Positions 29,883 through 35,020 of a DNA stretch of 64,000 nucleotides are shown piece by piece. Within the stretch, counting starts at the first letter, position 1; each line of letters opens with the position of its first letter. The stretch comes from Arthrobacter sp. PAMC 25486. GTDB taxonomy: Bacteria; Actinomycetota; Actinomycetes; Actinomycetales; Micrococcaceae. The position numbers and the translations under genes were made by a program. Below the pieces are notes generated by a model, which was not told where the DNA came from, did not search any database, and was given only the letters and a program-made list of their open reading frames with translations. Where the stretch lies: positions 3,680,439 through 3,744,438 of the forward strand of contig NZ_CP007595.1 of assembly GCF_000785535.1 (NCBI RefSeq), in the 5' to 3' direction.

Positions 29883-29967
29883 GCCATGCAGTCAACGCCG
29901 GACAGTCTTGGCTCTGTTTTGACCCGTCGTTCACACATTCCCACAATATTGCGTACCCCCAGGTTGC

Positions 29968-31383
29968 GTCCCGTGGAGTGGTGGAGTTTTCCTCAACACC
30001 GTGCGGGTCAGTGCTTTGATTATGCTGCAGTGAGTTCTGGGAGCAAAATTCCTTCTTCTACTGGGGTGGGCGTTGTGGTGCTCATGGTCTTGAGTTCGGT
30101 CATGGAGGCTTCGGAGAGGTAGCGGCGGTCCCCGGCTTCCCATTCATCGTGTTGCTCGACGAGGACGGCGCCGGCGAGCCGGAGCAGGGCTGTGGGGTTG
30201 GGGAAGACCCCGACGACATCGGTGCGCCGTTTGATTTCCTTGTTGACCCGTTCCATGAGTTGGTAGACCAGATCTGGCGCCAGTGCCGGGTCGGGAAGCC
30301 GGTGAACGCGAGCACGTCTTCTCGGGCGTCGCCGAGCATTGCGGCGACTTTGGGATGGGATTTTTGCAGCATTCTGGTGACTTCATCGAACTGGGTGTTC
30401 ACGTGTTCGGCGTCGGGTTGGGCGAAGGCGGTGCGGATGATTGAGCCGACCATGTCCTGGGATCCCTTGGACACGATCGAGAGCACGTTTCGCATGGAAT
30501 GCACCCGGCAGCGCTGCCAGGAAGCTCCCTGGAAGACCATGGCGATGGCCTTCTTCAAGCCTATGTGGGCATCGGAGATCGTCAGCTTCACCCCGTCGAG
30601 TCCACGGGTTTTCATGGAACGCAGGAACGCGGTCCAGAACCCTTCGTTCTCGCTGTCGCCAACATCGAAGCCCAGGACTTCCCGGCGCCCGTCCGCCGCC
30701 ACCCCGAAAGCGACCACGACGGCTTGGGAGACGACCCGGTGCCCGACCCTGGCCTTGCAGTAGGTCGCATCGAGGAACACGTACCGGTAGTCCATGGTGG
30801 AGAGGTCACGGTCACGGAAAGCACCGACTTCATGGTCCAGGTCCTCGCAGATCCGGGAGACCTCGGACTTGGAAATCCCGGTGTCGGCCCCGAGTGCCTT
30901 GACCAGATCGTCGACCTTGCGGGTGGAAAACCCGTGCAGATAGGCCTCCATCACCACGGCGTAGAGGGCCCGGTCAACACGACGGCGCCGTTCGAGCAAC
31001 GCAGGGAAGAACGAGCCATTCCGCAGCTTGGGAATCTTCAGGTTCAAATCCCCAGCCGTGGTCGTCAAAGTCCTGGTTCGGGAGCCGTTGCGCTGGGTGG
31101 TGCGCGCCTCGGAGCGTTCGAAGGGGCCGGCGCCGATGAACACGGTGGCCTCAGCCTCGATGAGTTGTTGATACAAGGTTTCGGTCCCGGTACGGATCCG
31201 GTCGGAGACGTCGGTGAGTTTGAGTTGTCCCAGAAGATCGAGCAGGGCAGACTGGTCTAGAGCCATCGTGTGTTTGTGTCCTTTGTGAGTAACTTTGATC
31301 GGTTCTCACTGACCATCGCACGATGGCTCTTCACGTCGGAAATCCGATACTCAGACGCCGGGAACTACACCACTCCACGGGAC
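29968..31383. mobile_element. IS256-family element (1.42 kb) with inactivated transposase
   Basis: The left end GTCCCGTGGAGTGGTGGAG (29968) and the complement of the right end GTCCCGTGGAGTGGTGTAG (to 31383) form near-perfect terminal inverted repeats. They enclose a leftward IS256-type transposase. The 8-bp flanks (CAGGTTGC and GTAACCGA) do not match, so no duplication is visible, suggesting an old copy or rearranged flanks. Confidence 0.8.
30020..31266 (-). pseudogene. Frameshifted IS256-family transposase
   Basis: The leftward frame from 31266 carries the IS256/mutator-type core: YVFLDATYCKARVGHRVVSQAVVVAFG, GFDVGDSENEGFW, KLTISDAHIGLKKAI and QRCRVHSMRNVLS, then FTGFPTRHWRQIWSTN. There the frame breaks. 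The proper C-terminus (MERVNKEIKRRTDVVGVFPN through LPELTAA) continues in another frame from about 30256 to 30020. In intact relatives WSTNP(L/M)ERVNKEIKRR is continuous, so a small indel near 30256-30270 has destroyed the gene. Confidence 0.88.
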
Positions 31384-31454
31384 GTAACCGAGATGTCACC
31401 GTGGTCGATCGAAGTTTGGCTCGCACGGTGTCGTGGCCTTGTCCATTCCTATGC

Positions 31455-31920
31455 TTACTTCAGTTCCATTTCGATGAAAACGAACTCGTCGAGTCCGTCA
31501 TTGACGACGTAGTGCGTATCCGGTTAGCTCAGGTTGACTGGATGTCCATCCGAAGTTGCGCCAACCATGGACGTTTCAGGAGCGCCAGAATGGGTTCTGC
31601 GACGAATAAGACTGATTCGAGCTCGCTTGACGGCTGCCGCTGACCCAACCTGAGCAAACCGGATACGCATTGACGACGTTATGTTCACCTCCGGCTGGCC
31701 GCTGGTATGAGCTGCCCAAAGACAATTCGTTGACAGTAGCTCCGTATGGTGTGTGTAACGTCAGCTGGCCGGTGTTCATCGGGACCACGACGTAGTCAAA
31801 TTCGTGAATGTGCCATCCTGTTTCCGAATTCGGAGGAAATCTCCATTCGGTAACCCGCACCCGGTCGTTGTCAATCTATATGGTCGCTTGGGCCGTCTGT
31901 TGTAGCTGACGCTCTGTCAT
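31455..31920 (-). pseudogene. Cupin-domain gene broken by an amber codon and a MITE
   Basis: The gene starts 10 bp after the MHS transporter stop. Frame from 31920: MTERQLQQTAQATI, TAG, IDNDRVRVTEWRFPPNSETG, then WHIHEFDYVVVPMNTG and GGEHNVV. There a 161-bp element intervenes. After one 8-bp duplication the frame resumes exactly as NDGLDEFVFIEMELK and a stop. Removing the element and one duplication restores a continuous 98-codon frame except for the amber at codon 15. Metal-binding HxH and a later His are present, so the ancestor was a small one-domain cupin, perhaps an isomerase, lyase or binding protein. A GTG re-start after the amber is possible but would still meet the insert. Confidence 0.82.
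31511..31671. mobile_element. 161-bp MITE with 8-bp target duplication
   Basis: The ends are AGTGCGTATCCGGTTAGCTC (31511) and, complemented, AATGCGTATCCGGTTTGCTC (ending 31671). The match continues for 6 more bases with only 2 mismatches in 26. GACGACGT at 31503-31510 and again at 31672-31679 is a perfect 8-bp target duplication. The element encodes nothing. Such non-autonomous elements are mobilised by a transposase recognising the same ends; an 8-bp duplication is compatible with IS256 or ISL3 types among others. Confidence 0.85.
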
Positions 31921-31930
31921 GGTGGTACGC

Positions 31931-33244
31931 CTACTCGACGGTGATTTTTGCGGCCTTAGTTGCAAAATGCATGGATACGAAGCTGATGATACCCAAGACC
32001 GCCAGATATGCGGCGATCGGCCACCATTGGCGTCCCGACCAGGCATACAACCCGGTTGCAATGAAGGGAGAGAGTCCTCCTGCGAACACGGCAGCCAGCT
32101 GATAGCCCATTGAAACGGCACTGGTACGAATCTCCACCGGAAAGAGCGAACCCATGATCGCCGGCTCCAGTGCGAACATGGCACAAGCAATGGCAATGGC
32201 AGCCGTCATGGCCAAGGTGATCACCACAAAATTTCCGGTGTTGAACATCAGGAAGAAAGGGAAAGCGATGACGATGGAAGCGGCGGCCGCCCACAGAAAG
32301 AGCCGTCTATGACCAACTTTCTCTGACCATGTGCCAAATAGTGGGATGAGAACAAACTCGACGGCGGAGCAGATGAGCACAGCACTCAGGAGCGGCCCCT
32401 TTTCGAGCCCCAGGGCATCCACGCCGTAAGTCAAGGCAAAAACGGTCACAACATAGAAGACCGAATTTTCTGAGAAACGGATGCCGGCGGCCAGCAGAAT
32501 GACACGCCAATGCTCGGTGATGGCAGTCTTGACCGGCATTTTCTGAACTTTTCCTGTTTTGAGCGCGTTCTCGAATTCAGGCGATTCATCCAGGGTCATG
32601 CGGATAACCAAGCCAACAATCACCAGAACGAAACTTGCAACGAACGGGATTCGCCAGCCCCAGCTCAGGAACTGCTCATCCGGCAACATGGTCAGCAGGG
32701 CAAAGGCGCCCGTGGAAAGAATGGTTCCAACTGGAACACCCATTTGGGGTATGGAACCAAAGAATCCTTTCCTCCCCTTGGGGGCGTGCTCGACAGCCAT
32801 CATGACGGCGGCACCCCACTCACCGCCAACACCGAAGCCTTGGATCAGGCGGAGCATGACCAAGAGGATGGGCGCCCAAACGCCAATCTGTGCATAAGTG
32901 GGCAGCAATCCGATGGCGGCGGTGGCAAAGCCCATGATGAGCAAGGTGACGACGAGGATCTTCTTGCGCCCAACCTTGTCGGCCAGATTTCCAAAGATGG
33001 CCCCACCCAGCGGACGGGCAGCAAAACCCACCCCGAATGAACCAAAGGCTAGGAGCGTGCCAATGAGCGGGTCAGCGGACGGGAAGAACACTTTGCCGAA
33101 TACGAGGGCTGATGCTGTGCCGTAAAGAAAGAAGTCGTACCATTCGATGCTGGTGCCGATGAAGCTCGCGACCGCCACTTTGGTGGCCGAGGACTTCTTA
33201 GCGGTTCCGGGTTTTCCCGGGACGAGTTGCTCTTGAACTACCAT
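31931..33244 (-). CDS. MHS-family MFS transporter (first of two)
   Basis: This 437-aa, 12-TM symporter belongs to the metabolite:H+ symporter group, which imports carboxylates and zwitterions. Signatures are FIGTSIEWYDFFLYGTAS at the first helix, GFAARPLGGAIFGNLADKVGRK between helices 2 and 3, LIQGFGVGGEWGAAVMM and SWGWRIPF. AAAGGAG precedes two adjacent ATGs; I chose 33244 for spacing. It lies downstream of the hydroxyacyl-CoA dehydrogenase gene, with a 190-bp gap that could hold its own promoter, and upstream of the broken cupin. Confidence 0.93.
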   Translation of the reverse strand: MVVQEQLVPGKPGTAKKSSATKVAVASFIGTSIEWYDFFLYGTASALVFGKVFFPSADPLIGTLLAFGSFGVGFAARPLGGAIFGNLADKVGRKKILVVTLLIMGFATAAIGLLPTYAQIGVWAPILLVMLRLIQGFGVGGEWGAAVMMAVEHAPKGRKGFFGSIPQMGVPVGTILSTGAFALLTMLPDEQFLSWGWRIPFVASFVLVIVGLVIRMTLDESPEFENALKTGKVQKMPVKTAITEHWRVILLAAGIRFSENSVFYVVTVFALTYGVDALGLEKGPLLSAVLICSAVEFVLIPLFGTWSEKVGHRRLFLWAAAASIVIAFPFFLMFNTGNFVVITLAMTAAIAIACAMFALEPAIMGSLFPVEIRTSAVSMGYQLAAVFAGGLSPFIATGLYAWSGRQWWPIAAYLAVLGIISFVSMHFATKAAKITVE

Positions 33245-33434
33245 CATTTCTCCTTTGAAAGTTGGTGCCGACGCTGTGGGGCATCTAGATATTGAGACTA
33301 AGAGGTGACGGCCGAAAACCACCCTGTCCGGTGTGGACAGTCCATGGAATGAAATATGAATCATGGATATTGTTCGCAGTGTTCTCGACCGCTGTCCGTC
33401 GGGGTTGGGCCGTGGTCGCCGGTATCGCCGTGTA

Positions 33435-34262
33435 CTACCAGGTGAAGAACCCTTGCCCGCTCTTGCGACCAAGTTCCCCGCGCGCCACTTTCTCACGGAG
33501 AATTCGGGGCGGCTCAAAGCGCGGGCCGAGCGTCCGGCTCAGGTGCTCACTGATGGCGAGCCTGATGTCCAGCCCCACCATGTCAGTCATGCGCAATGGT
33601 CCGACACCGTGCTGGTACCCCAGAACCATCCCGGCATCAATATCTTCGGCAGTGGCGATCCCCTCCTCCACCATTCGCATCGCTTCCAAACCCAGCGCAA
33701 CGCCCAGTCTGCTCGTGGCAAAGCCGGGCGAGTCCTGTACAAGGATTGGCTTGCGGCCTAGGCTGACGGTGCATTGGACAGCCAGTTCAACGGTCTCCGG
33801 CGAAGTTTGCGCACCGATCACCAGCTCGATCAATTGTGTTGCCGGCACCGGTTGAAAGAAGTGCATCCCCACCAAACGCTCGGGCCGAACCAGGCCAAGG
33901 GCCAGCTCGGAAATGCTCAGCGAGCTGGTATTGGAACACAAGAGCCGGGGCTGCAGGACCTTCTCCGCGTTCGCCAATACCTGCCCCTTGAGCTCGGCGG
34001 TCTCGGGCACGGATTCGATGACAAAGTCGGTGCCAGCGACCTCTTCCACTCGTTCGGCCAGCTGGAGTCTGGTGGTGCGGTAGTCCTGACCGTCTTGCGC
34101 GGCGAAAATCATCGAACCGGCATTGTTTCGCTGCTTGTCGGAGGGGTCAACCAGCGCCACCTTCCACCCGGTAGCAAGAAACGTCTGTGCGATCCCGGCA
34201 CCCATGGTGCCCGCACCGATAACGGTCACATGGTTGCCAAATATGTCATTGGTCATGGACAT
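33435..34262 (-). CDS. 3-Hydroxyacyl-CoA dehydrogenase-family NAD-dependent enzyme
   Basis: The 275-aa protein has the N-terminal Rossmann motif VTVIGAGTMGAGIAQTFL, the FVIESVPE block, the catalytic region SNTSSLSISELA with GMHFFQPVPATQLIELV (His in HFF), and the C-terminal helical domain with FATSRLGVALGLEAMRMVEEG and GVGPLRMTDMVGLD. It oxidises a beta-hydroxy group with NAD. The family also includes L-carnitine 3-dehydrogenase and L-gulonate 3-dehydrogenase, so the substrate need not be a CoA thioester. It is 8 bp downstream of the SDR gene. Confidence 0.9.
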   Translation of the reverse strand: MSMTNDIFGNHVTVIGAGTMGAGIAQTFLATGWKVALVDPSDKQRNNAGSMIFAAQDGQDYRTTRLQLAERVEEVAGTDFVIESVPETAELKGQVLANAEKVLQPRLLCSNTSSLSISELALGLVRPERLVGMHFFQPVPATQLIELVIGAQTSPETVELAVQCTVSLGRKPILVQDSPGFATSRLGVALGLEAMRMVEEGIATAEDIDAGMVLGYQHGVGPLRMTDMVGLDIRLAISEHLSRTLGPRFEPPRILREKVARGELGRKSGQGFFTW

Positions 34263-34270
34263 GGTGCCCC

Positions 34271-35020
34271 CTAAAGTCGAGGTGCAAGTTGGAGTCCGCC
34301 AGCGACATGGAGCACTTCGCCGGTAATGAACGATGCGTCAGCACTGGCAAAGAAGGCCGTCGCATTGGCGACATCCTCAGGGGTGGCAACCCTGCGCATC
34401 GGCGTCATACGTGCATAGCGGGCAAAATTTGCGACCCGCTCCCCGCCCATGCCCATCGCGTCCACGAAGGACGTATCAACCGGGCCGGGCGCCACTACAT
34501 TGCAGGTGCCGCCGGTTTCTCCCAATTCCTGTGCCATGGTTCTACACAATCCCACCACACCGGCCTTGGACGCGGTGTAGGCCGGATTTCCGCCGGAAAG
34601 CCAGGTGCGGGAGCCGATCATGATCACGCGCGCAGCAGTGCTCTTGAGCAGGTGGGGCATGGCAGCCGAACTGACCACGAACGCGCCGCGCAGGTTGATC
34701 GCCATGGTCCGATCGAAATCTGCCAAGGCCGTGGTGGTCATGCCACCGGTGGGCGCGATGCCCGCATTGTTTACGACGACGTCGAGTCCGCCCAGCGTTT
34801 CGTGCACCTTCGCCATCGCCGTAGTGACGGAATGGTCATCAGAGACATCCATGTGCAGCGGCACCGAGCGGGGGATTGTGGCACAGACTGCGGCGGCCCG
34901 CTCGACGGCGGCATCTGTGACGACAACGGTGAACCCGTCATTTCCCAATCGCCGGGCAATTGCGGAGCCAAAAGCTCCGCCGGCTCCTGTGACCAGGGCG
35001 ATCCTTGATGGTGCAGGCAT
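34271..35020 (-). CDS. SDR-family oxidoreductase
   Basis: This classical 249-aa SDR has the NAD(P)-binding ALVTGAGGAFGSAIAR, DMDV-like HMDVSDDHSV, VVNNAG, the catalytic Ser in VIMIGSRTW, Tyr-x3-Lys in PAYTASKAGVVGL, and a C-terminal FITGEVLHVAGG. All catalytic residues are present. The expected role is oxidation or reduction of a hydroxyl or keto group in the same pathway as its neighbours. AAAGGA precedes the ATG. Confidence 0.92.
   Translation of the reverse strand: MPAPSRIALVTGAGGAFGSAIARRLGNDGFTVVVTDAAVERAAAVCATIPRSVPLHMDVSDDHSVTTAMAKVHETLGGLDVVVNNAGIAPTGGMTTTALADFDRTMAINLRGAFVVSSAAMPHLLKSTAARVIMIGSRTWLSGGNPAYTASKAGVVGLCRTMAQELGETGGTCNVVAPGPVDTSFVDAMGMGGERVANFARYARMTPMRRVATPEDVANATAFFASADASFITGEVLHVAGGLQLAPRL

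Follow-up and report, generated by a model that had tools for sequence, protein, structure and literature searches.

The IS1595 family is reportedly the subject of a 2009 study by Siguier et al. MITEs, in turn, are thought to derive from ISs via internal deletion and to be mobilised in trans (PMC3852290). Table 4 of the same paper lists an IS1595-family MITE from Haloquadratum walsbyi with 165 bp, seven copies, 25-bp repeats, 8-bp duplications and a partner IS, ISHwa6. According to the available excerpt of PMC8101967, IS1595 members usually make 8-bp duplications and carry an N-terminal zinc finger, except in the IS1016 group. ISApl4, which belongs to that group, makes 8-bp duplications and prefers A/T-rich sites (PMC12561309, excerpt). 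A recently described bacterial MITE is MITEPye1 of Paracoccus yeei, which is related to IS1182 (PMC11578231, excerpt). Among the open-licence literature matches listed, none concerned IS1595-family MITEs from Arthrobacter-type bacteria, which is weak evidence of absence; the excerpts of PMC3281130, PMC2991359 and PMC9208149 add nothing on IS1595 MITEs.

Here we analyse a 64,000-bp stretch of DNA (the window, C1:3680439-3744438) from the 4.59-Mb, single-contig genome of Arthrobacter sp. PAMC 25486, in which a gene for a cupin-fold protein is split by a 161-bp insert. We put the probability at about 0.94 that the insert is a MITE derived from an IS1595-family IS by internal deletion and moved into the cupin gene in trans by an IS1595-family transposase. 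This one genome offers a set that can be checked: two identical copies, an autonomous IS whose ends match theirs, an origin for the core, and a target pattern.

Results

Structure and boundaries of the element

The first-pass annotation of this DNA had described 26-bp imperfect terminal repeats, matching at 24 of 26 positions, around a 161-bp insert with an 8-bp duplication. Both features were borne out, with GACGACGT on either side of the insert (Table 1). The direct repeat around the element is actually 12 nt long, CATTGACGACGT, because the right end of the element, CATT, equals the flank by chance. A second copy elsewhere in the genome, identical at 161 of 161 positions, fixes the boundary. 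It lies within its own 8-bp duplication, AGGCGACT, which by eye cannot be extended, so the boundary is set at 161 + 8. The genome contains these two MITE copies. The second one sits in a hairpin arm just downstream of a class II fumarase-like ORF (by eye), and its 8-bp duplication appears to leave the hairpin whole (L011:2470-2667).

Table 1. Coordinates of the features at the interrupted cupin locus (positions in the window)
Feature	Coordinates	Strand	Evidence
Interrupted cupin-fold gene (pseudogene)	31455..31920	-	reading frames, homologues, alignment A1
Target duplication GACGACGT, left copy	31503..31510	.	sequence comparison
161-bp element, probable MITE	31511..31671	.	ends, duplications, identical second copy C1:4134976-4135136
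Left terminal inverted repeat, 26 bp	31511..31536	+	first 25 and first 24 bp equal the two resident-IS ends
Decayed IS1595-family transposase 5' end	31565..31646	+	MITE 55-136 collinear with G018 transposase codons 7-33
Right terminal inverted repeat, 26 bp	31646..31671	-	2 mismatches against the left repeat
Target duplication GACGACGT, right copy	31672..31679	.	sequence comparison
In-frame TAG, cupin codon 15	31876..31878	-	sense codon at the same column in 20/20 relatives read

The genome was searched with the element's ends, as the annotation had suggested. The end pattern, at up to three mismatches, occurs seven times: at the four MITE ends, at both ends of an IS, and at a single end of another IS that has decayed. 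The reversed control pattern gave 0 occurrences, and the end-sequence matches are not chance. The earlier statement that the element has no coding capacity holds, the longest stop-free run in the MITE being 48 codons, but its core is the decayed remnant of part of a transposase gene, interrupted by stops.

As RNA, the complete element has a strong predicted fold (z -6.64 and -5.52), as would a structured RNA or a non-mobile repeat that owes nothing to a transposon. The core alone, on the minus strand, has a z of +0.86, and the fold derives from the terminal repeats. Each copy also has a different 8-bp duplication, which marks transposition, and an IS with the same ends exists. On these three grounds a structured RNA was ruled out, and we regard this reading as extremely improbable.

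A second transposon family is represented close by. An IS256-family (Mutator-type) transposase ORF, at 30100-31266, ends about 245 bp from the MITE. The IS256 family also makes 8-9-bp duplications. This transposase could have moved the MITE if the latter had acquired its ends by convergence. The inverted repeats of the IS256-family element, GGTTGCGTCCCGTGGAGTGGTGGAGTT (29962-29988 and 31363-31389), are however unlike the MITE ends, and both the ends and the core of the MITE match IS1595 elements. An IS256-family origin was ruled out by the differing terminal repeats, and such a driver is hardly credible. The IS256-family element itself (29962-31389) has 27-nt ends at 93%, with no target duplication seen around it by eye. 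Its ORF looks frameshifted: the family match is lost at residue 337 and continues in another frame at 30020-30256 (by eye). A degraded relative lies at C1:2971345-2972029.

The cupin gene and its counterparts in relatives

The cupin gene starts with an ATG at 31920 and reads in frame 1 up to the insert. Beyond the insert it reads in frame 2, which encodes DGLDEFVFIEMELK and reaches a stop codon at 31455-31457. The insert and one duplication together make 169 bp, or 3 × 56 + 1, so the two frames agree once both are removed. The restored cupin has 98 codons, the length of its closest relative, P0001 (98 aa, 81%), which is uninterrupted where the cupin is split and reads DGNDEFVFIEMELK. The frame restoration claimed at first reading thus holds, as does the second lesion, a TAG at codon 15 counted from the ATG (Table 1). 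The open piece at 31576-31860 matches Cupin_2 with an E-value of 9.4e-4, which falls short of the Pfam cut-off, and has no NCBIfam family match. A 64-aa piece of the cupin has 117 homologues, the best at 81%. For annotation, pseudogene is the better label for this cupin, which carries two lesions.

A cupin match at E <= 0.001 was found in 44 of 395 family genomes, the own genome included. From the 43 others we read 20 cupin loci (L040, L077-L095). None of the 20 contains the insert, and in each the column of the TAG holds a sense codon; uninterrupted cupin copies exist in relatives. One of these loci, L086 (G029, another genus), has the cupin among the same neighbours, but moved and inverted. 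Those neighbours are a 3-hydroxyacyl-CoA dehydrogenase (67%), an MFS transporter (80%) and, by eye, a short-chain dehydrogenase. The dehydrogenase/transporter/cupin gene set of window positions 31455-35020 is thus also kept in L086, with the cupin rearranged.

The annotation had proposed to look in a related strain for the site without the insert and with the cupin whole. This was obtained in part: the 20 loci are uninterrupted, and one of them has the same neighbours, but they include no strictly orthologous empty site. No sister strain of the window's species was found for comparison of the cupin locus. The converse, the 161 bp as a conserved part of relatives, was not seen in the 20 loci read.

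An IS1595-family element with the same ends

An IS with the same ends, which the annotation had proposed to look for, is present in the same genome and belongs to the IS1595 family. This resident IS (C1:262586-263609, 1024 bp) has ends that are identical at 24 of 24 positions and lies in an 8-bp duplication, ACGGGTGT. Its ends match the left end of the MITE over 25 and 24 bases. The transposase carries a DDE_Tnp_IS1595 domain and an N-terminal zinc ribbon, with matches over the cut-off to PF12762 (1.2e-31), PF12760 (3e-13) and NF033547 IS1595 (7.3e-59). The genome has no other PF12762 match.

Six extra residues lie in the zinc ribbon of the resident transposase, which reads ECAHCHCHCHCHRQ where G018 and G010 have ECADCHRQ. 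The expansion is absent from all three aligned relatives, and the IS is 18 bp longer than its 1006-bp relatives. The activity of the resident transposase is therefore uncertain. The extra residues are encoded by tandem 6-bp units (L009:2874-2899), a short repeat expansion. At C1:564526 lies the one end that can still be recognised in a decayed IS relative (L010:2027-2480), which is 74% identical to the IS in a 317-column alignment.

G018, G019 and G215 carry related ISs, 1006-1007 bp long and again with 8-bp duplications. An 8-bp duplication accordingly flanks each of the four ISs read at both ends, the resident one and these three. The open frame of the G019 IS begins late, so this IS may be broken. 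The duplications of the G018 IS and the resident IS are nearly the same (ACGGGCGT and ACGGGTGT), and their flanks differ (L014, L009); the two insertion sites are therefore not one locus. Another genome, G405, has nine PF12762 matches (L103, L106, L109, L111, L113, L115-L118), five of them no more than about 110 bases from where a contig begins. Its IS1595 element is present in several copies and seems to break the assembly.

Origin of the MITE core

An origin of the core unrelated to ISs was considered and dropped: plain BLAST saw the ends only, and this picture was overturned by a profile search and a shuffle test. The profile was a covariance model, R1, which combined the own MITE with a MITE in G452 and a right-hand part from Specibacter cremeus. 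R1 also matches the 5' ends of ISs, the resident IS among them (E 0.0033; the E-values are rough). Pairwise, positions 55-136 of the own MITE are collinear with positions 56-136 of the G018 IS at a score of 37, which 0 of 500 shuffles reach. The G452 MITE scores 47 against the resident (G000) IS, 43 against G018 and 51 against G019, each with 0/500 shuffles, and 33 against G215 (2/500). The own core scores 30 against the resident IS (14/500), 29 against G019 (10/500) and 28 against G215 (27/500), where the best match falls in a different part of the IS. These weak scores make the direct ancestor of the own core a diverged relative rather than the resident IS.

In the collinear alignments, those of the own MITE with G018 and of the G452 MITE with the ISs, the starts in IS and MITE are 1 bp apart and the ends agree. 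An in-frame remnant can be read in both MITEs, as WTFQERQNGFCDE followed by stops in the own copy and as LTFRESQEWFRDERACFWLPV followed by a stop in G452; the counterpart in the G018 IS is KTILEFQARFGDEQACLDYL. In the G018 IS the transposase begins at position 38. Position 136 is therefore the end of codon 33, and the match covers codons 7-33. From position 136 the MITE runs directly into the right terminal repeat. The MITE thus looks like an internal-deletion derivative that lost about 850 bp, judging from the lengths.

The pathway that we propose begins with an internal deletion in an IS1595-family IS, which would have retained about 136 bp on the left and a terminal repeat of about 25 bp on the right. 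The left part would comprise the terminal repeat, the leader and approximately the first 33 transposase codons, which have decayed since. The transposase of the 1024-bp resident IS, or of a relative now lost, would have recognised the shared ends and, acting in trans, inserted the MITE at an 8-bp target with AT flanks in the cupin gene, with duplication of the 8 bp.

Which transposase acted bears on a variant of this explanation, in which the driver was a different IS1595-family element, now absent and perhaps of the lineage from which the core came, and the resident IS is a bystander with similar ends. The G018 IS resembles the core more closely than the resident IS does, the resident transposase has the zinc-ribbon expansion, and two MITE-bearing genomes have no PF12762 match, all of which suits an absent driver. 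Against it, the resident IS is the genome's only PF12762 match, its two ends equal the left end of the MITE for 25 and 24 bp, and it sits at a site that conforms to the target pattern described below. We consider an absent driver unlikely, though well short of negligible, and the resident IS the likely driver.

A target pattern common to MITE and IS sites

We compiled 12 target sites, seven with both duplications and five with the left side only, the latter being unverified as duplications. The last base of the target 8-mer is T in 7/7 full sites and in 12/12 overall, and the first base is A in 5/7 and 10/12. Preceding the 8-mer are A (10/12), T (10/12) and A (9/12); following it, in the seven full sites, are T (7/7), A (5/7) and T (6/7). 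The resulting consensus, ATAA-N6-TTAT, is common to MITE and IS sites, which supports a common transposase. At the base composition of the window, T in 7/7 has a chance of 1.8e-5, a figure for a pattern that was noticed before testing. The single sites are only in part palindromic. With four bases added on each side of the 8-mer, 31 of 56 pairs match where about 14 are expected; site by site, 3, 4, 4, 6, 3, 6 and 5 of 8 pairs match.

Hairpins stand out at two of the seven full sites, the G215 IS (z -3.4) and the second own MITE copy (z -4.3). The other five show no standout fold (z -1.2 to 1.4), so a preference for hairpins is unsupported. The G215 IS has inserted at the centre of a palindrome whose 11-bp arms are perfect (L041:1470-2540).

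The annotation had held that the element must be moved by a transposase encoded elsewhere. The IS with shared ends, the duplications and the target pattern agree with this; the movement in trans itself, and by the resident IS in particular, we infer from these likenesses in sequence.

Distribution of the MITE

The MITE extends beyond the window's genus. G452, from another genus, has a 161-bp element (L042:1366-1526) that is 69% identical and flanked by the duplication AGGTCCAT. Every MITE copy for which both flanks are available thus has a duplication: GACGACGT and AGGCGACT in the own genome, AGGTCCAT in G452. Specibacter cremeus (G011), also of the Micrococcaceae, has four MITE places, each broken by a gap, with 1, 43, 11 and 9 Ns in the first 142 bases. 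In the right part, two of these places match over 74 bp at 91% identity, and a third matches over 64 bp at 89%. At E <= 0.001 there is no PF12762 match in the assemblies of these two MITE-bearing genomes, G011 and G452.

A DNA search matched 9 of 395 family genomes. Three have MITE copies (G000, G011, G452), and five match at the ends of ISs or IS remnants (G010, G018, G019, G215 and, by eye, G190). A 22-base match in G409 was dropped, as no end sequence lies nearby. With R1, 13 of 395 family genomes matched at E <= 0.01, a tally that mixes MITEs with IS ends because several matches lack paired ends. Matches in G056, G285 and G197, and six of seven in G405, were rejected as paired-end MITEs on account of a mismatched right terminal repeat; those in G004, G237, G247 and G019:C29 cover only model positions 50-137 or so. 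Across the order, R1 matched 1 of 396 genomes, the own one, at E <= 0.001 and with stricter filters. A plasmid source was rejected, the MITE having no match in the plasmid collection. The resident IS matches 11 records of that collection, one of them over at least 80% of the IS length, at 66.9%.

The 161-bp length in two genera at 69% identity, together with the two bearers that have no IS1595 transposase in their assemblies, allows a tentative and somewhat unlikely reading. The present MITE may be a branch of an old Micrococcaceae MITE lineage of fixed length that outlives its driver and is re-mobilised when an IS1595 element with compatible ends arrives, aimed at the palindromic target ATAA-N6-TTAT and sometimes within hairpins. 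MITEs of similar length may instead have arisen by independent deletions, and partner ISs may be concealed in assembly gaps.

Discussion

For the MITE in the cupin gene, a sister copy and a core origin have been identified, and with them a likely driver, the resident IS. The second identical copy, the origin of the core and the shared target pattern go beyond the first-pass annotation. IS1595-family MITEs are already in print, and the present one is ordinary biology that is unusually well documented.

The partner IS shares with the IS1595 family its terminal repeats, its 8-bp duplication and, in the transposase, a zinc ribbon and the DDE_Tnp_IS1595 domain, whereas the MITE has no transposase. 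Among the best 40 of 259 plasmid records, an IS of Rhodococcus sp. DMU1 ranks first (64.2%), and the named ISs are ISAcr1 (40.8%), ISCsp2 (38.3%) and ISRhtr1 (37.4%). ISApl4, as its excerpt describes it, differs from the present MITE in being a full 712-bp IS with 14-bp ends of different sequence. MITEPye1 and the present MITE, as far as the excerpt on the former goes, are both small and transposase-free, with parent-like terminal repeats, duplications, few copies and hairpin potential. The present MITE differs in having an IS1595 parent rather than an IS1182 one, and in that a piece of the parent transposase gene is recognisable. The Haloquadratum walsbyi MITE, on its table entry, has nearly the same build, with 165 bp, 25-bp repeats and 8-bp duplications. 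That element is archaeal and has seven copies, and the likeness is one of tabulated description rather than of compared sequence.
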